64,000 bases of DNA. Origin: Nitrospira moscoviensis (GTDB lineage: Bacteria > Nitrospirota > Nitrospiria > Nitrospirales > Nitrospiraceae). The notes below the pieces were generated by a model. The model had not been told where the DNA came from and did no database searches. It saw only the letters and a program-made list of their open reading frames with translations. The stretch is taken from NCBI RefSeq assembly GCF_001273775.1, contig NZ_CP011801.1:930001-994000 (forward strand), written 5' to 3'. Position numbers and translations under genes: made by a program. Positions 5,373 through 16,544 of the stretch are shown one piece after another; the stretch's first letter is position 1; every line of letters starts with the position of its first letter.

Positions 5373-6953
5373 TCAGTAGAACGTATACACCAGCAAGGCA
5401 TTGCACTGAAACCGCATGTACACGCTGGCGATTTGCGTGTAATCGGCCATGATCTTCAGCAGCCAGGGCTTGGAGAGCCGCGCCGTGTAGGCGGCATGGG
5501 CGTCGCCGCCGATGCGGAAGACCGAAGCCTGTGTGGCTTCGTCGATGTACTGAAGGGCCGGACCGGCGGCGAACGACAGATCCTGCTTCTCGTCGATCGT
5601 GTAGGTCGCGGCGAGCCGGGGAATCTGGTTCACGAAGACTTGCGGGCTGAAGTAGCCGCCCGGCAGCGGCTCGGCGGCGCCGGGCCGGAAGCCGCCCTGA
5701 TTCTCCCCGTAGTGGGTGAGGTAGAAGACATACTCGGCGGCGAAATCCCAGTCGCCCGCCTGCGTGAGCGGCATCGATGCGTTCGCCGTCAGGCCCACTT
5801 GATCGTTGCTGCTGAGCGATTCCGCCGTGACCCATCCGACGAACGGCATCACGTCGAGATGGACGGACCCGACATCGAACGCCACGTCGGTGTAGAAGAG
5901 CGTCGACCGCGCCAAGCCGAGCAGCTGCCCGCTCGCGCGCGATCCCACCAGCGAGGTAAAGGAATCGTATCGAAACTCCCGCCTGACGCCGGGACGAATC
6001 GAAACCGCGGGGCCGTCATACACGTACTCGAACTTGTAGGCCAGCCCGTCGCCGCGCGGCGCGTCATGGTACTCGAGCAGGAGATCGAATCGGTGCGCCG
6101 GATTAAACCGCAATTGATTGCCGAACGACAGGTAGCCGCCGGCGCGGTTCTCCGACGAGTTCCAGAAATGCTCGGCCCCGACCTCGAGCGTCGTAGTCGT
6201 AAAAGGGCTGAGGTCCATCTTGCCGCGCGAGCCCAGGCGCAGGCCATACAGCTCGAACGGCTTCTCCGGCTGAGCCAATACCGACAACAGGCCTTCGACG
6301 GCCGGCTCCCGCCCTTTGAGCATGTCGCGGCGCAACGCCGTCATGTCACCGGGCTCGCGCCGGGACGCCTGCCGCGCCAGATTGGCATGGTACAGGGCCA
6401 GGTCGTTTTGCCCGAGCCAGGCATAGGCCTTGGCCAACCCTTGATGCGCCTGGGGGTTGCGCGGTTGGGCCGCCAACACCTTGTCGTACTGTCCGATCGC
6501 TTCCTGCGCCGTCTCTTTGCGGCCGGCCAAGTGCGCGGCGTACTTCAACCGCATCGTGGCGTCGTCTTTCCGCTTCAGTCCCATGCGGTAATACTTCAGC
6601 ATGTCCTTTTCGCGATACGCGTAGCGCGACCATTCGAGCGCCTGCGCCTGTTTGAACGCGATCTCCGGATCGTCGTCGTACTGCGCGAGATAGCGGTCGA
6701 ACGTGTCGATGGATTTGTCCTTCAATCCCTGCCGCTCGTAGGCGAGGCCGAGGCTCCGCAACGCTTCCCGGTGCGCCGGATTGTGCTCGACGACCTTTTC
6801 AAACGCTTCGATGGCGGCCTTGTAGTTCTGGATTTCCATGTTGGCTCGGCCGCGGGACAGATACCAGGATTCCATGAAATCCACGGCGGACGATGCAGCG
6901 GGAGCCGCGGCGCTATACAGAACCAGACACAATCCTACGATTCGGAGGTACAT
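5373..6953 (-). CDS. TPR plus outer-membrane beta-barrel export protein (BcsC-like)
   Basis: 526 residues. A signal peptide (MYLRIVGLCLVLYSAAAPA) is followed by about five TPR units up to residue ~220 (for example NYKAAIEAFEKVVEHNP) and then a ~290-residue region with alternating amphipathic strands ending in an aromatic residue (LLVYTFY), the terminal signature of outer-membrane barrels. This is the BcsC/PgaA/AlgK-E arrangement: periplasmic TPR scaffold plus export pore. It is shorter than classical BcsC (~1150) because it has far fewer TPRs. It starts 19 bp after the cellulose-synthase fusion, so it is the likely exit channel for that product. ATG 6953 was preferred over an upstream in-frame start because it opens the signal peptide. 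Confidence 0.82.
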   Translation of the reverse strand: MYLRIVGLCLVLYSAAAPAASSAVDFMESWYLSRGRANMEIQNYKAAIEAFEKVVEHNPAHREALRSLGLAYERQGLKDKSIDTFDRYLAQYDDDPEIAFKQAQALEWSRYAYREKDMLKYYRMGLKRKDDATMRLKYAAHLAGRKETAQEAIGQYDKVLAAQPRNPQAHQGLAKAYAWLGQNDLALYHANLARQASRREPGDMTALRRDMLKGREPAVEGLLSVLAQPEKPFELYGLRLGSRGKMDLSPFTTTTLEVGAEHFWNSSENRAGGYLSFGNQLRFNPAHRFDLLLEYHDAPRGDGLAYKFEYVYDGPAVSIRPGVRREFRYDSFTSLVGSRASGQLLGLARSTLFYTDVAFDVGSVHLDVMPFVGWVTAESLSSNDQVGLTANASMPLTQAGDWDFAAEYVFYLTHYGENQGGFRPGAAEPLPGGYFSPQVFVNQIPRLAATYTIDEKQDLSFAAGPALQYIDEATQASVFRIGGDAHAAYTARLSKPWLLKIMADYTQIASVYMRFQCNALLVYTFY

Positions 6954-6972: not shown

Positions 6973-9900
6973 TTACGTTTGGTCAGTGGCCGAGGCGGCA
7001 AGCTGAGGAGGCGTCTCGGCAATAAGGACGGACGGTCGGGCGCCGTAGCGCCAGACAAAGGGAACAAGCCGGGTGCGGTAGCAGACCGTGTAGGAAGCGA
7101 GCGAGCCGTCCGGGCTTGTCACGGTCCAGCACTGATCGGCGGGAAGGGGCCGGCCCATCACGATGAGGCCGATCCCGCTGGCCGAGTGGTCTCGGACGAT
7201 GGCCAGTCGCTGCATGGTTCCCGTGCCGATCGTGGTGCGGCGGATGGCGGTGGTCCGCGGAGTCCTCCGGCGACTCCGGCGGGCTGCGACAAGGCGTTTC
7301 AGAAGTCCGGCGATCAGGTGGGCCGCCATGACCAGGTTGTTTCTGACTCTGGCGTTGTGGCCGCCGGCCCATGTGGATGGGTCGGAGAAAATCGTGAGTA
7401 CCATGCGTCGATGAAATTCTCGGTCCGTCTCGATCCAGCGCAAGCCGCACCGGGCGCCGGTTCGGGAAAGCCGCTCATGATAGACGACCTGCGCCCGGCA
7501 GGTGAAGGGGGGATCGGTGAGAAAAGTCAGAGACACTTCCGAAGGCAGCGCCTCGGTCGTCTTGGTCGTAAAGGAACAGCCGGCCGGGCTGATCTCATCG
7601 GTGCGGCCCTCGAATGAACGGCTCTCGGCCTCCAGCCGGAAAGGGATCGGCTTTCGTATCCGTTCCTCGGCTCGCCGCTGCGGCCGTTCCCAGGCCATCA
7701 GCAGACCGGCCGACAGGCCCACCAGGTTGATGCCGGCCCAACTCAGGTTGAAGAAGTAGGCGTCCTTCTCGATGCCGAAGTACCAGAATTCCCACAGGCC
7801 CTTCGCCATCGCGCCGAGGGTCAGGGCGGTCGCCGCCACCAAACTGAAACTGGACCGCCAGTCGAACCTGTGGCGATGGCTCACCAGGCCTTTCGGCGTC
7901 ACGCTGAAGCCGAGGCGCTTCGGCAGAAACAGGTCGAACATCGAGCGGAACAGCGGAAAGCACACCGTGCTCTCGTACACCGTGGACCAAAGGAGGCGCG
8001 GCCAACCGGGCAGCAGGGCGGACGACATCATCGGAAGCAGCAGGAGGAACGGCAGCAGGTAGGCCATCAGGACGGAGACGTCCGAAAAAATGGGATGCAG
8101 ATGGAACAGGAGGAAGTACAGCGGGGTGATCCAGAAGACGACCCGCGCCGCCGGAAAGAAGAAGTAGTAGAGCGAGGCGAAATAGCCCAGCCGGTGCCGG
8201 AGCGAGAGCCCCCGGCACAACAGCGGATTGTCTTTGAAAAAGATTTGCAGGCAGCCGAGCATCCAGCGCCGGCGCTGGATGAGGTAGGATCCCAGCGTTT
8301 CCGCTGTCAGGCCCACAGCCAGATCCTTGTCGAGGAACACCGAGCGCCAGCCCCGCGCATGAAGGTGCTGGCTGGTATGGATGTCCTCCGTAATGCTCAG
8401 CAGCTTGAAACCGCCCAGGTCCATGATGGCCGCCCGGCGGAAGACCGCGCCGCTGCCGACGAAGAACGATCCGCCCCAGGAATGTCGTCCGCCCTGGATC
8501 GCGTGGTTGAACATATCCTGCTCGTTCGGAATGCCGGGGCCCGTACGGAGCGCGCGCTGAAAAATGTCCTGATTGTAAAAATGGTGCGGCGTCTGGACGA
8601 AACCGACGCGGGGATCGGCAAAGAAGGGGACGGTCTCGCGAAGGAAGGTCGTGACCGGAATATGATCCGTGTCGAAGACGACGACCAACTCTCCCGCTGT
8701 CTGAGCCAGCGCCCGGTTCAGGTTGCCCGCTTTGGCATGGCGGCGAGGCCCCTGCAGATACTGCGCGCCGTAGCGATGGGCCAGCTCGCGCACCTCGTCC
8801 CGGTGGCTGTCGTCGAGGACGTAGATCCGTTTCGGCTCATACGCCATCGCCGCGGCGCCGATGAGCGTGCGCTCCAAGATGGCGCAGGACTCCGAATAGA
8901 TCGGGATGAGGACGTCAACCGAGGGGGTGAAGTCGGGACTCGGTGTCGCCGCAGGGGAAGGCCGATGCCCGGATCGCACGCCGACTTGGACCAGCAGCAG
9001 CAGGATGGTGGAGAAGGCATAGCATTCCGCGATCCACAGCGAGAGGCTGATGAACAGGCCGCCCGGCTCGATGACGTTCAGGGTGTTGAATAAGCGCCAC
9101 CAGAGATAGCGCAGGCAGAGCGCGCCGGCGCAAACGAGAAAGGCGATGTTCAGCAGCGGGTGCCGGCGGGCGAGGAAGAAGAGAACCAGCGCGACGGCGA
9201 AGGGCTCCAGCGGGAAGTGCGCGAGGAAACCCGTCACGTCGAACGGGCGGAGAAAGCCCAGGAACTCGTCGTAATGGCGCGCCTGCTGGAGGGCGCTCGC
9301 TTCGCTGAACCACAGCCAGTTGTGCAGATAATACGGCGTCGCTTTGCCCGCCAAGGCTTGGCGTTGGAGCGCCGTCAATTTGCGTTCGCGGATCCGGCGC
9401 GCCAGATCCGGGTCCGTCTCGAGCGCCAAGGCCTGGACGGTCGCATACAGCGGTAACGCTTCCAGTGACGACCGGGGCGTGCCGTCCACTTGGTACCGGT
9501 CCAGAAAACGGCCCTGTGCCTTCCATTCCCGTTCGAAGAAGGCCAGCATCGCCTGCCTGAGCGGGCCTTCCGCTCGGCCAAACCACCGCACGTCCTGGGC
9601 GACCCGCCAGAAAATCGGAAAGGCATCATAGCTGAAGTCGGCTATCCGGCCGCTCTTTGGATGGCGCAGCGACAGTCGCTGAGTGGTCTTATTCCAATAG
9701 ACGAGTTCAGGAGGAAGGGCGACACGTTCCTCGTCGTAAAGCCAGTGCAGGAGGGCGTAGCTATCCGCGATCACCTGCCGCCATGGATGGCCGGGATCGA
9801 CCGACGCAAACACCTCATAGGCGTAGGGAGCCAGATAGGCCACATGAATGACGGGCGCCTCTTCGTGCCGCGCCCAGTTGCCGGCCGTCACATAGACATG

Positions 9901-10419
9901 ACCGTCGACATGGAGCAGGTCCACATCCCAGATCGACGTCAGAATGGCAAGCGCCTCGCGCTCGTAGGGCTGATGGTCAAACCGCCGGGCGGCGAGGATC
10001 AAGGCCAGCGCGATGTCGGTGTCCGCATCGGTGGCCGAGTTGGCGGAGACGACCTGGTCTTTCCATTTCCAGGCGAACAGCTTGTCTTGTCTGATTTGCA
10101 GATGCTGGTTCGTCCATGTCCAGACGCGATCGAACGTCGCGCGGTCGCCGGACCAGACGGCGCGCAGCATCGCATAGCCCTGACCCTCCGACGTGGTGAT
10201 GCCCTGCTCGTCCCAACTCACGACCCGTCCATCGACGATGTACCGCTGTTTGTAGTAGCTCCAGAGCGCCGAGAGGTCGTCCAACTGGCGGATGTAGCGG
10301 TCGCTGGATCGTTCGGCGGAGGGCAGGGACCCGACCGCCGGGGTGGTTCCGAACAGGAACGCCAGACTGAGCAGGCAGGCGGAAAGCCCGGCCCGGGATA
10401 CGGCAGAGCCGGGTCTCAT
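6973..10419 (-). CDS. Fused GH8 endoglucanase - cellulose synthase catalytic subunit - two PilZ-like domains
   Basis: 1148 residues. Order: signal/anchor 10-28; GH8 (BcsZ-like) ~45-395, with the catalytic acid in TTSEGQGYAM (E78) and base in SYDAF (D265); membrane helices ~402-478; GT2 BcsA core ~500-720 with DVLIPIYSE, LDDS (536-539), DTD (583-585), TED (677-679) and QRRRW (715-719); more helices ~742-905; a PilZ region ~912-1012 with RAEER but EISPAG where the family has D/N-x-S-x-x-G; and a second PilZ-like region ~1048-1125 with RRTPR and DHSASG, a complete c-di-GMP motif. It should polymerise UDP-glucose to beta-1,4-glucan and trim it in the periplasm. The start overlaps the upstream stop as ATGA. 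Confidence 0.88.
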   Translation of the reverse strand: MRPGSAVSRAGLSACLLSLAFLFGTTPAVGSLPSAERSSDRYIRQLDDLSALWSYYKQRYIVDGRVVSWDEQGITTSEGQGYAMLRAVWSGDRATFDRVWTWTNQHLQIRQDKLFAWKWKDQVVSANSATDADTDIALALILAARRFDHQPYEREALAILTSIWDVDLLHVDGHVYVTAGNWARHEEAPVIHVAYLAPYAYEVFASVDPGHPWRQVIADSYALLHWLYDEERVALPPELVYWNKTTQRLSLRHPKSGRIADFSYDAFPIFWRVAQDVRWFGRAEGPLRQAMLAFFEREWKAQGRFLDRYQVDGTPRSSLEALPLYATVQALALETDPDLARRIRERKLTALQRQALAGKATPYYLHNWLWFSEASALQQARHYDEFLGFLRPFDVTGFLAHFPLEPFAVALVLFFLARRHPLLNIAFLVCAGALCLRYLWWRLFNTLNVIEPGGLFISLSLWIAECYAFSTILLLLVQVGVRSGHRPSPAATPSPDFTPSVDVLIPIYSESCAILERTLIGAAAMAYEPKRIYVLDDSHRDEVRELAHRYGAQYLQGPRRHAKAGNLNRALAQTAGELVVVFDTDHIPVTTFLRETVPFFADPRVGFVQTPHHFYNQDIFQRALRTGPGIPNEQDMFNHAIQGGRHSWGGSFFVGSGAVFRRAAIMDLGGFKLLSITEDIHTSQHLHARGWRSVFLDKDLAVGLTAETLGSYLIQRRRWMLGCLQIFFKDNPLLCRGLSLRHRLGYFASLYYFFFPAARVVFWITPLYFLLFHLHPIFSDVSVLMAYLLPFLLLLPMMSSALLPGWPRLLWSTVYESTVCFPLFRSMFDLFLPKRLGFSVTPKGLVSHRHRFDWRSSFSLVAATALTLGAMAKGLWEFWYFGIEKDAYFFNLSWAGINLVGLSAGLLMAWERPQRRAEERIRKPIPFRLEAESRSFEGRTDEISPAGCSFTTKTTEALPSEVSLTFLTDPPFTCRAQVVYHERLSRTGARCGLRWIETDREFHRRMVLTIFSDPSTWAGGHNARVRNNLVMAAHLIAGLLKRLVAARRSRRRTPRTTAIRRTTIGTGTMQRLAIVRDHSASGIGLIVMGRPLPADQCWTVTSPDGSLASYTVCYRTRLVPFVWRYGARPSVLIAETPPQLAASATDQT

Positions 10420-13400
10420 TGCGTGAGGAAATAATCCAAGAGGGCGAGCGCGCTGAACCCGCCCGAGGGCAAGAGCAGCGCCTGGAACACGGGATGTTGT
10501 GACCAGTGAGCGAAGGCGCCTTGCCGGACTCCTTCGATATCCCGCAGCATCTGGTCGATCTGCGCGATCTGCTGGGTGCACCGTTCGCCTTGTCCCGGCT
10601 CCTGCGCCTTCGCGCGGAGGAAATAGATCTGGTCGCGCAGGCGCTTCACGGCGCTGCCGCGCGCTTTTTCCGCGGCGAAGCTGAGCAGCACGGCGCAGGC
10701 CAGGATGTAGGCGGCGGTGACGGCGAAGATCACCAAGAGGCCGGGCGGATAGGACCAGTCGTCGAAGATCCGATTGCGGGCCGCGACGATGAGAAACAGC
10801 GCGATGAGCGGATAGTGAATCAGCGAGCCGACGACCTTGGTGCGTTCCGCGATGAACGTAATGTCGAGCCACTCGCCGATCAAGTCGGCCGGCAGCTTGC
10901 GCTGCTCGCTGAGCGGCGTGATGATCTCCGCCGGCCACTGCGTTTGCTCCAGCGCGAATTGATGGATGAACCCCGTGCAGACCCGGATGGCATCCACCAC
11001 ATAGAAGACGAGCAAGCCCAGCGTCGCGGTGGACAGGACCCACACGACCGCGTTCACCCACCAGGCGACGGAGCCGCGGGCCGGGGTATGGGGCATGCCG
11101 AAGAGGATCAAGAGCAAGCCGCCGAGCATGCCGAGCACGGTTGTTTGCGGAACGATGCGGTGCCACTGCGTGCGAGCGTAGGCATCGTGCTCCCGCCACA
11201 GCGCGGCCAGATGCTTGGCGCTGCCGCTGAACGAGACGGCCCAGGACGCCGGATGAAGCCGGGTAAGCCACTGGGCCGCTGTGGAAGGGGTGGACCGCTC
11301 ATAGGCTTCCGATTCGGTCAATCCGTATCGGGATGTCAAGGCCGCCTGGTTGGCCGCGAGCAGCCCGTGCCCCAGGCGGAAGAAGGCGATGCAAAGAATG
11401 GCGGTGAGCAGGCGGATGAGCTCCGTGGGCCAGATGCTCACCCCTTCGAGCCAGAACAGCGGTTCGCCGTTCGGCTGCGCCGCCGCCCAGGCAAAGCCCA
11501 GCACCGCGACCACCGCGGCCAGCGCCAAGCCGACGCCGGCTTGCAAGATGAACTGCGCCGTCTCCCGCGAGAGGATTTCTTCGGGGATCGAGCGGAGGAC
11601 GGGCACGATCAAACAAAAGGTGAAGAAGATGGTCATGGCGATGGGCAGCCAGCGGGAGGTCGCCAGTCGCCGGGCCCAATGCACGTCCGGCGCGCGCGGC
11701 GCGGCGGGCGCCGGCCCGCGCGTCATCATCGTCGTCGCCGGATTGAGAGCCTGCATGGTGCTGCCGAGAGGAACCAGCAGCGTCCGGCCCACTTCATACA
11801 CAGCCGGAACCGCCGCGATGTCGAGCGCGGCCGAATCCGCCCCTTTGATCTCATAGGGACAGGCGGGGCAGGTCCGATAGACGTGGCCGAGCGCCTGCAG
11901 GACGGCGAAGAAGGTCGAGCTTTGATAGTTGTTGCGGAAGGGCGGACTCTCCTGCTGCAGGCGCGGATGCAACTCCAGCCCGAAGTGCGACGCGATCAGG
12001 AGATTGTGCGTCCATTCATATTGGCTCGGATGCAGCAGCCGGGCGTCGAGATCGGTCGTGAAGAACAGCGTGTCGGGAAAACGCTTCCTGAGCGCTTGCA
12101 AGATCAGCAGCTTGTCGTAGACGTCGCTGCCGAGGATGCCAATGGCCTTGAACCGCCGCCCGTCCGAATCTTCCTCCATCCGATCGGCCAAGCGCCGCAC
12201 GTAATCGAGCTGGCTCTCCCCCTCCGGCCGTTCCAGCTCGTCCAACGACCGGTCCGTCTCTTTCCCATCCTTCCTGGCCTTCCTGGGAGCCGCGCCTCCG
12301 GATTCCCCGCCGGGCAACTCGCCGTCCAGCCCGCGCAAGTAGGTGTAGTGATGAATCCAGGGCACGGTCTCGCGCTGGACTTGCGGGTTCGCGAGGAGAC
12401 GCAAGCCTTGCAAGTGCGAGCTGCAGCGGGACGCCGGCCCGCCGCGATGGTCGTTCAGACAGGCGGCGACGGAAAACTCCAGCGGCAGGTTGCGTCCGTA
12501 GAACGTGTCCCATTCCGCGATGATGGCGATCGGGTCTCCTTCCCGGACTCGGCGGAGATGCAGTTCGTTCAGCAGCGTCTGCGCGAGCGCAAAATCAGTC
12601 GGGGGACGATAGACGAGGTCGAGGCCCGCACGCCGTAGTTGATCGCGGACCCACTGGTCCGGGTCCACTTCTTCGCGGGCGCGGGCTCCTTCGATGCTCT
12701 GATAGATGATGGAAGACGAGACTGAGGCCCAGGGCGAATAGAGAGGAACCAGCCCATCGGTGTCGTCTTGATGCGTCGCCGGCCAGCTCAGTGCTGGCCG
12801 ATTCTCTTTGGCTTCGCTCACCATGCTGCGCAACATGGCCGATCCAGGAGGACCGACAATCCGGAAGGCCACCCGCGCCATGGGTTTCACGCCCGGAGCC
12901 ATTGGCGACTCCTCGACCAGCCGGGTCAGCTGGTTCGCCAGGGCGGCGAGATCGTGCAACGGCCGGTCGCCGAACAGTTCATCGCTTAGCCACAACACCA
13001 GCACGTCGCTGAAGAGGGTGGAAGCCGGCGCGCCTGGATCACAATCCCGCAGCTTGCGCGGCCGATACCATTCGAAGGGAATGGAGGACGGAGGATCGGA
13101 CCGGTTCCACATGACGTACCCGACGTGGTCGCCGTCTTCCGGCACATAACAGGCGGCGCCCAGTGCGGCGCCCACGGCATAGCGATCGCGGATGCGCTGC
13201 TCCGTGCCTTCGACGTAAGGGCTGCCGTCGGTCATGACGAGCAGTACCGACAGAAGCGGCGCCGACGACGGCTTGGCGATGAGCTTGCCGGCGATTTCTT
13301 CGGCCAGCTCGGCCCAGCCGCGCGCCACCGACCCGGCGCCCCGCGCCTTTTGCGTTTTCAGATGCGCGTCGACTGCGGCGAGCGGGTCCTGCCAGAGCCG

Positions 13401-13568
13401 GGCGAGCGCTCGTTGTTCGATCACCGCCTCGTGCCGCTCCAGTCCGGGATTGGCCGGCCGCGAGCTCTTGAGCGGCGCCTGCGACCAGAGGTAGCCGCCC
13501 AGAGCCGCCACGAGGATGACGGCGCCGGAGAGCGCCAGGGTGGACAGATCTTTGTCGTTCGTGCTCAT
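10416..13568 (-). CDS. Large membrane protein of unknown function, first gene of the cellulose-type unit
   Basis: 1050 residues. One N-terminal helix (~11-28), then ~600 residues that should lie in the periplasm, then from ~640 to the end six to eight helices separated by short soluble loops. The soluble part looks like alternating alpha/beta segments: LLSVLLVMTDG near 107, AIIAEWDTFYGRN near 350, and IGILGSDVYDKLLILQAL plus FPDTLFFTTDLDARLL near 475-515. This recalls type-1 periplasmic-binding or caspase-like Rossmann folds, but I cannot name the family. It does not read as BcsB. It is translationally coupled (ATGA) to the endoglucanase-synthase fusion, so a role in that complex is a fair inference. 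Confidence 0.6.
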   Translation of the reverse strand: MSTNDKDLSTLALSGAVILVAALGGYLWSQAPLKSSRPANPGLERHEAVIEQRALARLWQDPLAAVDAHLKTQKARGAGSVARGWAELAEEIAGKLIAKPSSAPLLSVLLVMTDGSPYVEGTEQRIRDRYAVGAALGAACYVPEDGDHVGYVMWNRSDPPSSIPFEWYRPRKLRDCDPGAPASTLFSDVLVLWLSDELFGDRPLHDLAALANQLTRLVEESPMAPGVKPMARVAFRIVGPPGSAMLRSMVSEAKENRPALSWPATHQDDTDGLVPLYSPWASVSSSIIYQSIEGARAREEVDPDQWVRDQLRRAGLDLVYRPPTDFALAQTLLNELHLRRVREGDPIAIIAEWDTFYGRNLPLEFSVAACLNDHRGGPASRCSSHLQGLRLLANPQVQRETVPWIHHYTYLRGLDGELPGGESGGAAPRKARKDGKETDRSLDELERPEGESQLDYVRRLADRMEEDSDGRRFKAIGILGSDVYDKLLILQALRKRFPDTLFFTTDLDARLLHPSQYEWTHNLLIASHFGLELHPRLQQESPPFRNNYQSSTFFAVLQALGHVYRTCPACPYEIKGADSAALDIAAVPAVYEVGRTLLVPLGSTMQALNPATTMMTRGPAPAAPRAPDVHWARRLATSRWLPIAMTIFFTFCLIVPVLRSIPEEILSRETAQFILQAGVGLALAAVVAVLGFAWAAAQPNGEPLFWLEGVSIWPTELIRLLTAILCIAFFRLGHGLLAANQAALTSRYGLTESEAYERSTPSTAAQWLTRLHPASWAVSFSGSAKHLAALWREHDAYARTQWHRIVPQTTVLGMLGGLLLILFGMPHTPARGSVAWWVNAVVWVLSTATLGLLVFYVVDAIRVCTGFIHQFALEQTQWPAEIITPLSEQRKLPADLIGEWLDITFIAERTKVVGSLIHYPLIALFLIVAARNRIFDDWSYPPGLLVIFAVTAAYILACAVLLSFAAEKARGSAVKRLRDQIYFLRAKAQEPGQGERCTQQIAQIDQMLRDIEGVRQGAFAHWSQHPVFQALLLPSGGFSALALLDYFLTQ

Positions 13569-13742
13569 CGCGTACCTTGCAGGCTGCGCAAGGCGCGCCT
13601 ATGTTAGCGAGAACGACGGCGCGATACCACAGCAAACGTCCGGTCTGCGCCTCGCTCGTGCAGCACGGTCGGCTTGACAGGACCGGGGCAGGTAGTCGAC
13701 AACGGTCCACGATGCGTCCGGCCCGGCTCGGGCGGGATACGT

Positions 13743-16544
13743 ATGGCACGACGGATGGTTCGATATCGGCGACTTCTGTTGGTCGGCCTGACGGCGGCGG
13801 CGATTCTCTATCTGGTGTTGCCGCTCGCAGCATCCTACGTCCTCGCGCGGGAACTGCGCGCCCAAGGCTATCAACAGGTCATCATCCAACTCGGCTACCC
13901 CGGTTGGCGCAGGATGCACATTCCCGTCGTGTCCTTCCAACAGGATGTCGGGCAGGAACGCGTGATGGTTTCCCTCACCGACGCCGAGGTGGATTATCGG
14001 CCGATCCAGCTCTTGAAGGGACACGTGAATCGGGTGTCGCTGCCCGAAGTAGCGGTGCAGATTCTGCACACGAAACCCGGTGGAATCGATGAGTCGGGGG
14101 GAGGACCCAAATCCGACGAAGAGGGATCGCCGTGGGCGCTGCTGACCGCCGGGGATCTGTTGCGCCGGCTGCCCATCCTGCCCTTCGATGAGCTGCGGCT
14201 GGATCGGCTGACGTTGTTTCGCGAGCAGGCCACGGGGCCGCTTCGGAAAGTGACGATCTCCGGCGTGCTGATCCAGCAGGAGGGCGAGCTGGGCGGGCAT
14301 CTCTCATTTCAAGGCCAACATACCGCTCCCTATGGTCTGACGGTGGCGGGTCATTCGGCCAGCACCTGGTCGGCGACCTTGGCCTCGCAGCGGCCCCAGG
14401 CGGCTCCAATCATTTCGTGGCAGTCCTCCGCCCATCCCAGCGGCACTCAGATCAAGATGGAAGGTCGGTTGGAGGTCAACGTGCGGGAGCTCGCGCCCTT
14501 TATCGCCCTGCTGGTTCCGATCGGCCCCGAATTGGGAAAGGTCACGGGACAGGTCGTGATGAGCTGGACCGGGATGGCTGCGGCCGACGCCAGCTTGCTG
14601 TCGATCTGGGAAGATCCGCGGACGCAAATGGACGGCCAGGTGCGGGCTGCAATGACGTTGCCTGCGCTGCAGGGTATGGCGAAAGACATCGCCCTGTCCT
14701 GGGAGGGGCGGTTCTCCGCCACGGCCAGCCAGGTGGCCTGGACGCTCGATCCGGGCGTCCTGCTGACGGCGACGGTGAACATGCCGCCGCAACGGATTCC
14801 CGAGGCGGTCCGGGCGCTCTTGCCTCGCGGCGACCAGCCGCTGCGTATCGAGCAGAAGCAGCCGGTTCAGGGCCGGTTGATGTGGGCCGAGTCGCCGTTG
14901 CGCATGGTGGCCGAGGGGCCGGTGCACGTCACCTATGGACGGACGCCGGGACCGCTCGTCGTGGAATTCGAGGCGGCCCGCGCGGAAAGCGTGGGACAGG
15001 AGTTGGTCGGAGCCGAGGGGACGTTTCGCGTCGAGGGCGAGCTCTCCAAAACGGTGACCGATCAGTTGGCCGCGAAGGAAGCGATGGGAGGCTTTCACGG
15101 CGCGCTGTCCCTTGCCGGCAGCCAGCTCCAGGGGAAGCTGTTTCCGTCTTCCCTGGTCACGGTCAAATATGTGGAGCACGGGACGGTGTCGATCCCGCGC
15201 GCGACGCTGCAATTGGTGGATCCCTTGCCGCTGCACTGCGATGTCGGTGCGCGCCGCTGCCGGGTTGGCTCCGCTTCCGTCGCGGTTCGTGTGCCGGCCG
15301 TGCATGTCGCGGGACGGGACGTACGGATCGCCCAAGGCATCCTGACGATCCAGCAAGGGGAGACGGCCGGCGCGTCGTGGAACCTCCGTGCGACGCTCGA
15401 CGCGGGGGGCGTGACCGTCGATCTGCCGTACGGCGGAGTCGCGGCCGGCGACTGGTCCGTCAAACTTGCGGCGAACGAAGCGGGGCTCAAGGCCGAGCTC
15501 CGCGCCGATGCGCCGGCCCACGAGGAATGGCTGACCGCCGGCCTCGAGCAGCCGTTGGGAGCCGGACGGGGAATACTCCACGGCAGACTGGACCTCCTGT
15601 TCGATGCCGGCCTGCGGCGGCTCAGCCGGTTCATGGCCCTGCCGGTGCCGATGGACCTCACCGACGGCCGATTGACTGTCGCGGTGGACGCCTCCTGGTT
15701 TGGCATGCCGGGGCGGGGATTCGACATGACAAGCGGCTCCGCGACGGTTACGGCGGAGAAGCTCTCCGGCCGCTATCTCGACTATGAGATGAAGGGGCTG
15801 AGCACCACGATGGTGCTCCGCAGCGGGGGGCTGCACTCCATCGAGATGGCGGAGCCCGCGACCGTGACGGTAGCCTCCGTTCAGACGGGCGTCGAGCTGA
15901 CGAATCTCGGGATGGCCGTACAGGGATCCTGGAACGCGTCGGAGACGTTCCCCGTGATCGACATTAAAGATATCCAGTGTGATCTGTTCGGGGGAGCCGC
16001 CACCAGCCCCGGCACCCATATCGATTGGACGAAGCCGCCTGCGCGCATGACGTTTTCCCTGCGGAAGCTCGATTTGGCGAGAGTCTTACGCGTCGAGCAG
16101 CAGAAAGGTCTCCAGGGCAGCGGGATCCTCAACGGCACGCTGCCGGTCAGCCTGACGGCCGCCGGCGTCTCGGTCGATGACGGGGCGCTGGAAGCGGAAT
16201 CTCCCGGCGGCGTCATTCGCTACGGGTCGATGCCGGAGTCCTCGAAGGTGATCACCGAAGCGGACAGCCACCTCCATCTCGTCGCCCAAGCGCTCAACAA
16301 TTTCCACTATACGGTCCTGCGCGTCGGCGTCGACTATGCCGACAGCGGGCTGTTGAATCTCAACATCCGCTTGGAAGGCAAAAACCCCGACCTGAAAAAA
16401 AGCCCGCCGATCCACTTCAATCTCGCCGTGCAGGAACATGTGCCGACTCTTCTCAAGAGTCTTCGTCTGGTCCGGGATCTTGAGGACTCGATCCAGAAGA
16501 AGTATAAAGGCTCGGATTCGACGAGGACCGGCCGCGGTACGTGA
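13743..16544 (+). CDS. ydbH: YdbH-family intermembrane (AsmA-like) protein
   Basis: 933 residues. One N-terminal helix (LLLVGLTAAAILYLVLPLAA) anchors it in the inner membrane, and the rest is a long beta-rich periplasmic body with repeating strands. The C-terminal ~150 residues match the YdbH/DctA-YdbH domain (GVIRYGSMPESS, ALNNFHYTVLRVGVDY, LNLNIRLEGKNPD, PIHFNLAVQEHVP). In E. coli, YdbH acts with TamB and YhdP in phospholipid delivery to the outer membrane. The ATG at 13743, preceded by GGCGGG, was preferred over 13674 because it opens just before the basic/hydrophobic anchor. It is followed by ynbE and ydbL, the E. coli order. Confidence 0.88.
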   Translation: MARRMVRYRRLLLVGLTAAAILYLVLPLAASYVLARELRAQGYQQVIIQLGYPGWRRMHIPVVSFQQDVGQERVMVSLTDAEVDYRPIQLLKGHVNRVSLPEVAVQILHTKPGGIDESGGGPKSDEEGSPWALLTAGDLLRRLPILPFDELRLDRLTLFREQATGPLRKVTISGVLIQQEGELGGHLSFQGQHTAPYGLTVAGHSASTWSATLASQRPQAAPIISWQSSAHPSGTQIKMEGRLEVNVRELAPFIALLVPIGPELGKVTGQVVMSWTGMAAADASLLSIWEDPRTQMDGQVRAAMTLPALQGMAKDIALSWEGRFSATASQVAWTLDPGVLLTATVNMPPQRIPEAVRALLPRGDQPLRIEQKQPVQGRLMWAESPLRMVAEGPVHVTYGRTPGPLVVEFEAARAESVGQELVGAEGTFRVEGELSKTVTDQLAAKEAMGGFHGALSLAGSQLQGKLFPSSLVTVKYVEHGTVSIPRATLQLVDPLPLHCDVGARRCRVGSASVAVRVPAVHVAGRDVRIAQGILTIQQGETAGASWNLRATLDAGGVTVDLPYGGVAAGDWSVKLAANEAGLKAELRADAPAHEEWLTAGLEQPLGAGRGILHGRLDLLFDAGLRRLSRFMALPVPMDLTDGRLTVAVDASWFGMPGRGFDMTSGSATVTAEKLSGRYLDYEMKGLSTTMVLRSGGLHSIEMAEPATVTVASVQTGVELTNLGMAVQGSWNASETFPVIDIKDIQCDLFGGAATSPGTHIDWTKPPARMTFSLRKLDLARVLRVEQQKGLQGSGILNGTLPVSLTAAGVSVDDGALEAESPGGVIRYGSMPESSKVITEADSHLHLVAQALNNFHYTVLRVGVDYADSGLLNLNIRLEGKNPDLKKSPPIHFNLAVQEHVPTLLKSLRLVRDLEDSIQKKYKGSDSTRTGRGT

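Follow-up and report, generated by a model that had tools for sequence, protein, structure and literature searches.

We describe a gene of Nitrospira moscoviensis that joins a GH8 endoglucanase, a BcsA-type GT2 synthase and two PilZ domains in one polypeptide, a variant form of the cellulose-type secretion machinery of bacteria that is not described in the literature searched. The main new point is that no BcsB is detectable and that the first helix of BcsA is missing from the fusion protein. The window, i.e., the whole stretch of 64,000 nt that was analysed, corresponds to bases 930001-994000 of a single-contig genome of 4,589,485 bases. An earlier note on this DNA had proposed the single polypeptide and placed it correctly at 6973-10419, leaving the strand, which is minus, unstated. 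The absence of BcsB, the loss of the first helix, the conserved TPR/barrel gene next to the fusion and the altered linkage-specificity residues were missed in that reading.

Architecture of the fusion protein

The gene runs from 10419 to 6973 as an uninterrupted ATG-to-stop frame of 1148 aa. Its product consists of a signal peptide, a GH8 domain, three membrane helices, a BcsA-type GT2 domain, more helices, PilZ1 and PilZ2, in that order. The features, in window coordinates with the evidence for each, are as follows.

6973-10419, minus strand: GH8-GT2-PilZ-PilZ fusion gene, 1148 aa (frame, Pfam, NCBIfam, AlphaFold, 31 related loci)
10330-10419, minus strand: signal peptide, residues 1 to about 30 (hydrophobic at 6-29; similar leaders in relatives; presumably cleaved)
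9280-10302, minus strand: GH8 endoglucanase domain, residues 40-380, acid E78, base D265 (Pfam PF01270, alignment, Foldseek)
8983-9237, minus strand: three transmembrane helices ahead of the GT domain, residues 395-479 (AlphaFold, hydropathy)
8257-8925, minus strand: BcsA-type GT2 catalytic domain, residues 499-721, with DD, DTD, TED and QRRRW (Pfam, NCBIfam, PDB matches, alignment of relatives)
7693-8202, minus strand: membrane and interface helices after the GT domain, residues 740-909 (AlphaFold)
7891-7908, minus strand: FSVTPK gating-loop motif (FxVTxK), residues 838-843 (alignment of relatives)
7402-7680, minus strand: PilZ1, residues 914-1006, with RAEER (916-920) and EISPAG (942-947) (Pfam 2.6e-13, motif table)
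7030-7272, minus strand: PilZ2, residues 1050-1130, with RRTPR, DHSASG and WRYG (profile comparison, fold, Foldseek, motif table)
5373-6953, minus strand: TPR and outer-membrane barrel protein, a putative BcsC-like exporter (TPR domains, weak BCSC_C match, neighbourhood, alignment)

Pfam searches placed GH8 at residues 53-302 (8e-36), GT2 families at about 499-789 (1e-19 to 2e-25) and PilZ1 at 914-1006, all above the gathering cut-offs; for the GH8 domain the score was 124 bits against a cut-off of 24. The NCBIfam CelA model TIGR03030 covered residues 409-1034 with an E value of 7e-152, and since its score of 506.9 bits is below the NCBI equivalog cut-off of 699.1, the synthase is BcsA-like rather than a strict BcsA. 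The GH8 domain gave 92.4 bits with the BcsZ equivalog model NF008305, below the cut-off of 299. The best PDB sequence matches were the E. coli and R. sphaeroides BcsA proteins and GH8 cellulases including CMCax. An AlphaFold model of the fusion (25 sequences) had a mean pLDDT of 81. In Foldseek comparisons the synthase part best matched E. coli and R. sphaeroides BcsA, and the N-terminal part matched BcsZ, CMCax and CelA.

Catalytic residues and topology

E78, D265, DTD, TED and QRRRW, all of which the earlier note saw as kept, are present in the fusion and conserved in relatives. E78 and D265 align with the GH8 catalytic pair of CMCax, the K. sucrofermentans endoglucanase and CelA, so that the domain combines a score above the Pfam cut-off with the catalytic Glu and Asp of GH8. 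The synthase carries the D, D, D, QxxRW signature of GT2 together with the FxVTxK gating loop of BcsA, and DD, DTD, TED, QxxRW and FxVTxK are conserved among the relatives. In E. coli the secretion of cellulose is reported to depend on the BcsZ catalytic pair, E55 and D243, and cellulases unrelated to BcsZ can take its place (PMC11379886).

The hydrophobic leader at residues 6-29 is signal-peptide-like, and relatives have similar leaders. AlphaFold places the helices ahead of the GT domain at 404-416 (with 395-401), 421-445 and 454-479, and hydropathy agrees. The N-terminus of BcsA starts inside the cell. Four helices are described as preceding the BcsA GT domain (PMC6821405). With the N-terminus of the fusion outside and three crossings, the GT domain comes to lie in the cytosol, as required. 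We infer that GH8 is periplasmic and GT2 cytosolic; this parity argument is independent of homology in the GH8 part. Thus the N-terminal position of the hydrolase, proposed earlier along with a periplasmic location, is given by the sequence, and the periplasmic location is deduced from topology.

Distribution of the fusion

A genome scan found 31 related loci with the same architecture, many of them from incomplete metagenome assemblies and a few on truncated contigs. The hosts include Nitrospira, Anaeromyxobacter, Desulfosudis, Bdellovibrio and Chromatiales, among others, with the taxon names of metagenome bins given as deposited. The nearest relatives are Nitrospira metagenome assemblies. 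Wherever a locus holds both GH8 and GT2, the two share one frame. GH8 was found in 12 of 79 Nitrospira genomes, each time within a frame of 1041-1441 aa; phylum-wide, frames with GH8 are either long like these (12 genomes) or hold GH8 alone in 346-457 residues, the exceptions being two fragments. GT2 relatives of at least 74% identity are always fused and those of 35-45% identity never, and no close unfused relatives inside the fusion clade were found among the 79 Nitrospira. In a maximum-likelihood tree of the GT2 domain, in which the reference rows are few and long-branched, 27/27 fused rows fell on a single branch with support of 100/100.

The earlier note had asked for a search for the same architecture elsewhere, and had raised the possibility that a frameshift merged two genes. 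Nothing in the window points to an assembly or frameshift artefact or to a decayed gene, and the one sign of such an event among relatives is a single frame break inside the GT domain of locus L004. The fusion recurs in unrelated genomes, including named Anaeromyxobacter isolates, and its catalytic residues are invariant or nearly so across relatives. Given the 31 loci, the single long frame in 12/12 GH8-bearing Nitrospira and the single GT2 branch, we rejected merged or decayed genes, an explanation to which we give next to no chance. The fusion is a conserved family and is probably functional. No description of a GH8-BcsA-type fusion was found in the open-access literature searched.

The partner gene

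The TPR/barrel gene starts 19 nt past the fusion stop, and where the contig extends far enough it follows the fusion immediately in nearly all loci. Its TPRs are clear; the BCSC_C match of 19.9 bits is below the cut-off of 23.5, and a PDB search with the exporter profile returned generic TPR proteins only. Since the genes around the fusion and TPR/barrel pair are arranged differently from genome to genome, this pair of genes seems to be the conserved unit, in which the TPR/barrel protein would export the glucan.

Two observations concern the surroundings. In a Myxococcota metagenome assembly (L022, 7977-12962, plus strand), a 1661-residue frame runs from GH8, GT2 and PilZ1 directly into the TPR/barrel protein, crossing that protein's apparent signal peptide and lacking PilZ2; either a misassembly or a cleavable super-fusion could account for the frame. 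In the window a YdbH-like intermembrane lipid transport protein is encoded in divergent orientation at 13674-16544, plus strand (Pfam 1e-69), and a YdbH-like gene likewise lies close to the fusion in L002, L004 and L005.

The two PilZ domains

EISPAG (942-947) in PilZ1, and RRTPR (1051-1055) and DHSASG (1077-1082) in PilZ2, are all present as the earlier note claimed. The Pfam PilZ model gave an E value of 0.18 with PilZ2 of the window protein, below the cut-off, and 0.0025 for the best of 19 relatives. In a profile-profile comparison PilZ2 matched PilZ1 with an E value of 1e-6 and a probability of 91%. The PilZ2 profile found no matches among PDB sequences, and structure comparison was therefore used. 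PilZ2 alone was predicted to form a six-stranded barrel with a pLDDT of 88, and its top Foldseek matches were the PilZ domain of BcsA, VCA0042, YcgR, Alg44 and other PilZ domains. Each of the five invariant columns of PilZ2 falls either on a PilZ motif position or within the closing R-x-G strand. With a six-stranded barrel, RxxxR and D/NxSxxG, the C-terminal segment is a second PilZ domain, as had been proposed.

The accompanying suggestion that c-di-GMP binding had moved from PilZ1 to PilZ2 fared less well. It draws on EISPAG in the window protein, an ExSxxG sequence where BcsA has D/NxSxxG, and on L020 and L028, which also have a broken PilZ1 motif and an intact PilZ2 motif. However, the D-to-E change is conservative and, among aligned members, confined to the window protein, and PilZ1 keeps RxxxR (R916 and R920). 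Further, E707 and R916 correspond by alignment to E371 and R580, reported as the autoinhibition partners of BcsA (PMC10374906), in which a salt bridge is involved; E707 does not vary and R916 hardly does. Among the 27 members aligned, the full D/NxSxxG motif is present in PilZ1 of 21 and in PilZ2 of 21 of the 22 with a complete domain; L022 and L029 lack PilZ2 but keep PilZ1, and three further contigs end early. A shift of c-di-GMP control to PilZ2 in this lineage thus seems quite improbable. Since the motifs and autoinhibition partners are kept and PilZ2 has the fold, we expect from the sequences that both PilZ domains matter. The motifs are no proof of c-di-GMP binding, since the PilZ domain of RiGT2 is reported to have both motifs, yet no binding was detected (PMC10374906). 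Nothing was found in the literature searched for tandem PilZ domains with cellulose synthase.

No detectable BcsB

Searches with PF03170 (BcsB) found no match at an E value of 1 in the genome of the fusion, none in the 79 Nitrospira (0/79), and none in 18 of the 19 fusion-bearing genomes reached through the loci. In the sole fusion-bearing genome with BcsB, that of L019, BcsB is at a separate locus, L039, beside a BcsA-like frame. Instead of the four N-terminal helices and BcsB partner of BcsA, the fusion has three such helices, the first BcsA helix being the one missing, and no detectable BcsB. In R. sphaeroides this first helix is described as coiling with BcsB, and the BcsB-less synthase RiGT2 also lacks it (PMC10374906). 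These results suggest that the fusion system works without BcsB; a BcsB too divergent for PF03170 is possible.

The fusion might instead be an ordinary cellulose synthase needing a BcsB-like partner unrecognised by sequence, either the 1050-aa protein encoded upstream or a divergent BcsB elsewhere. BcsB is required in well-studied systems (as cited in PMC10374906), and the upstream gene, which shares 4 nt with the start of the fusion, encodes a protein with a membrane anchor and a sizeable soluble portion. But the upstream protein is not beside the fusion in any relative examined, and its homologues are found elsewhere in 52/79 Nitrospira, mostly in genomes without a GH8 gene; on these grounds it was rejected as a BcsB substitute or part of the system. 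With the PF03170 search blank in the fusion's own genome and the BcsB-binding helix missing, we consider a hidden partner unlikely. The upstream protein (10416-13568, minus strand) is a membrane protein matching no Pfam family; its 4-nt overlap with the fusion start is seen here only, and in five cases examined its homologues are next to other genes.

The product

A related question is whether the product is cellulose. Because of the type of GH8 and the presence of PilZ, cellulose is our first guess, with another beta-glucan a live alternative. Five residues that in BcsA contact the growing chain or line its path are altered, N298Q, Y302N, L309R, C318V and N412A, where numbering is that of BcsA and the roles of linkage positions are those given in PMC6821405; C318 we added ourselves. 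H276 is kept in the family and residue 299 is acidic, as in BcsA. Most members have Q298 and R309, like the two BgsA-type proteins in the comparison, and N302, V318 and A412 are found in nearly all members. A beta-glucan other than pure cellulose, e.g., a mixed (1,3;1,4)-linked one made alongside a GH8 of matching specificity, would suit the BgsA-like Q and R at N298 and L309 and the unusual N and V at Y302 and C318. The three helices ahead of the GT domain and the lack of BcsB are also in keeping with CrdS and BgsA, as described in PMC6821405, and RiGT2, as described in PMC10374906, and the GH8 family includes 1,3-1,4-glucanases (5xd0). On the other hand, position 299 is Asp as in BcsA, whereas BgsA and CrdS have Arg, and H276 is retained. 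PilZ with motifs is present here and is reported absent from BgsA and CrdS (PMC6821405). Moreover, the GT2 tree, with its long branches, did not group the fusion with BgsA-type rows, and the GH8 structural matches are mainly BcsZ-type cellulases. We judge the other-glucan reading to be the less probable one, though worth keeping in view.

Comparison with known systems

The BcsA-BcsB-BcsZ-BcsC systems of E. coli and R. sphaeroides share with the fusion system the GT2 fold and motifs, gating loop, PilZ, BcsZ-type GH8 and a TPR/barrel protein, in the fusion system a putative exporter. The fusion differs in having GH8 at the synthase N-terminus, no detectable BcsB, one N-terminal helix fewer, a second PilZ and altered chain-contact residues. 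The BcsAB and BcsZC fusions of Zymomonas also combine Bcs components in one polypeptide, but other pairs are joined (PMC7112194). The GT-PgaB de-acetylase fusion of some pga operons likewise links a polymer-modifying domain to GT2, but it pairs a de-acetylase with PNAG synthesis rather than GH8 with a BcsA-type synthase (PMC7112194). The same survey, by Bundalovic-Torma and colleagues, assumed that a functional locus would have both bcsA and bcsB, and the sections of it consulted name no BcsZ-BcsA fusion (PMC7112194). The mixed-linkage glucan synthase RiGT2 is described as having no first BcsA helix, no bcsB in its cluster and a PilZ with both motifs; unlike the fusion it has a Gram-positive host, no GH8 fusion and one PilZ (PMC10374906). 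Nothing was found in the literature searched for Nitrospira with BcsZ or for Anaeromyxobacter with BcsZ.

Closer to home, the same genome encodes a BcsA-like protein that stands alone (L033/L055, 761 aa). This protein adjoins the fusion branch in the tree (95/81), but it has no GH8 and its GT2 is about 44% identical. It is encoded at 7964-10249 of L055 (G000 about 4,537,960-4,540,250), and by eye its C-terminus has two PilZ-like motif sets, the second being RRRTLR and DMSFTG. This unfused type, mostly in frames of 740-826 aa, occurs in about 20 Nitrospira genomes, in none of which is BcsB detectable.

Proposed mechanism and significance

On balance we favour a compact two-gene, c-di-GMP-gated system for beta-glucan synthesis, trimming and export that needs no BcsB. 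In this proposal the fusion would be a processive, inner-membrane, BcsA-type beta-glucan synthase with a periplasmic GH8 endoglucanase built in. The signal peptide would place GH8 in the periplasm, and the three helices would then lead GT2 into the cytosol, where it would polymerise glucose, probably from UDP-glucose, and drive the chain through its own membrane channel. As in BcsA, c-di-GMP would open the gating loop via PilZ1, with PilZ2 as a second c-di-GMP input. The chain would exit beside the tethered GH8, which would cut misdirected or jammed chains, and the neighbouring TPR/beta-barrel protein would take the chain up for export. The UDP-glucose donor, c-di-GMP binding, exact linkage and position of GH8 at the channel exit are predictions of this model. 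A bolder version, which we hold to be doubtful, is that GH8 replaces BcsB at the channel exit in a widespread minimal two-gene system, with one polypeptide synthesising, extruding and editing a product other than plain cellulose under dual c-di-GMP control.

With a cellulase covalently fixed beside a synthase where BcsB is undetectable, two general questions become testable with one protein: why a cellulase accompanies cellulose synthases, and what purpose BcsB serves. Judging from its motifs, the fusion may also provide a synthase with two c-di-GMP-type receiver domains. The lineage spans Nitrospira, Anaeromyxobacter and other Gram-negative groups, and in some members of Nitrospira, a group of nitrite oxidisers that matter for the treatment of wastewater, the fusion is likely a matrix polysaccharide machine.
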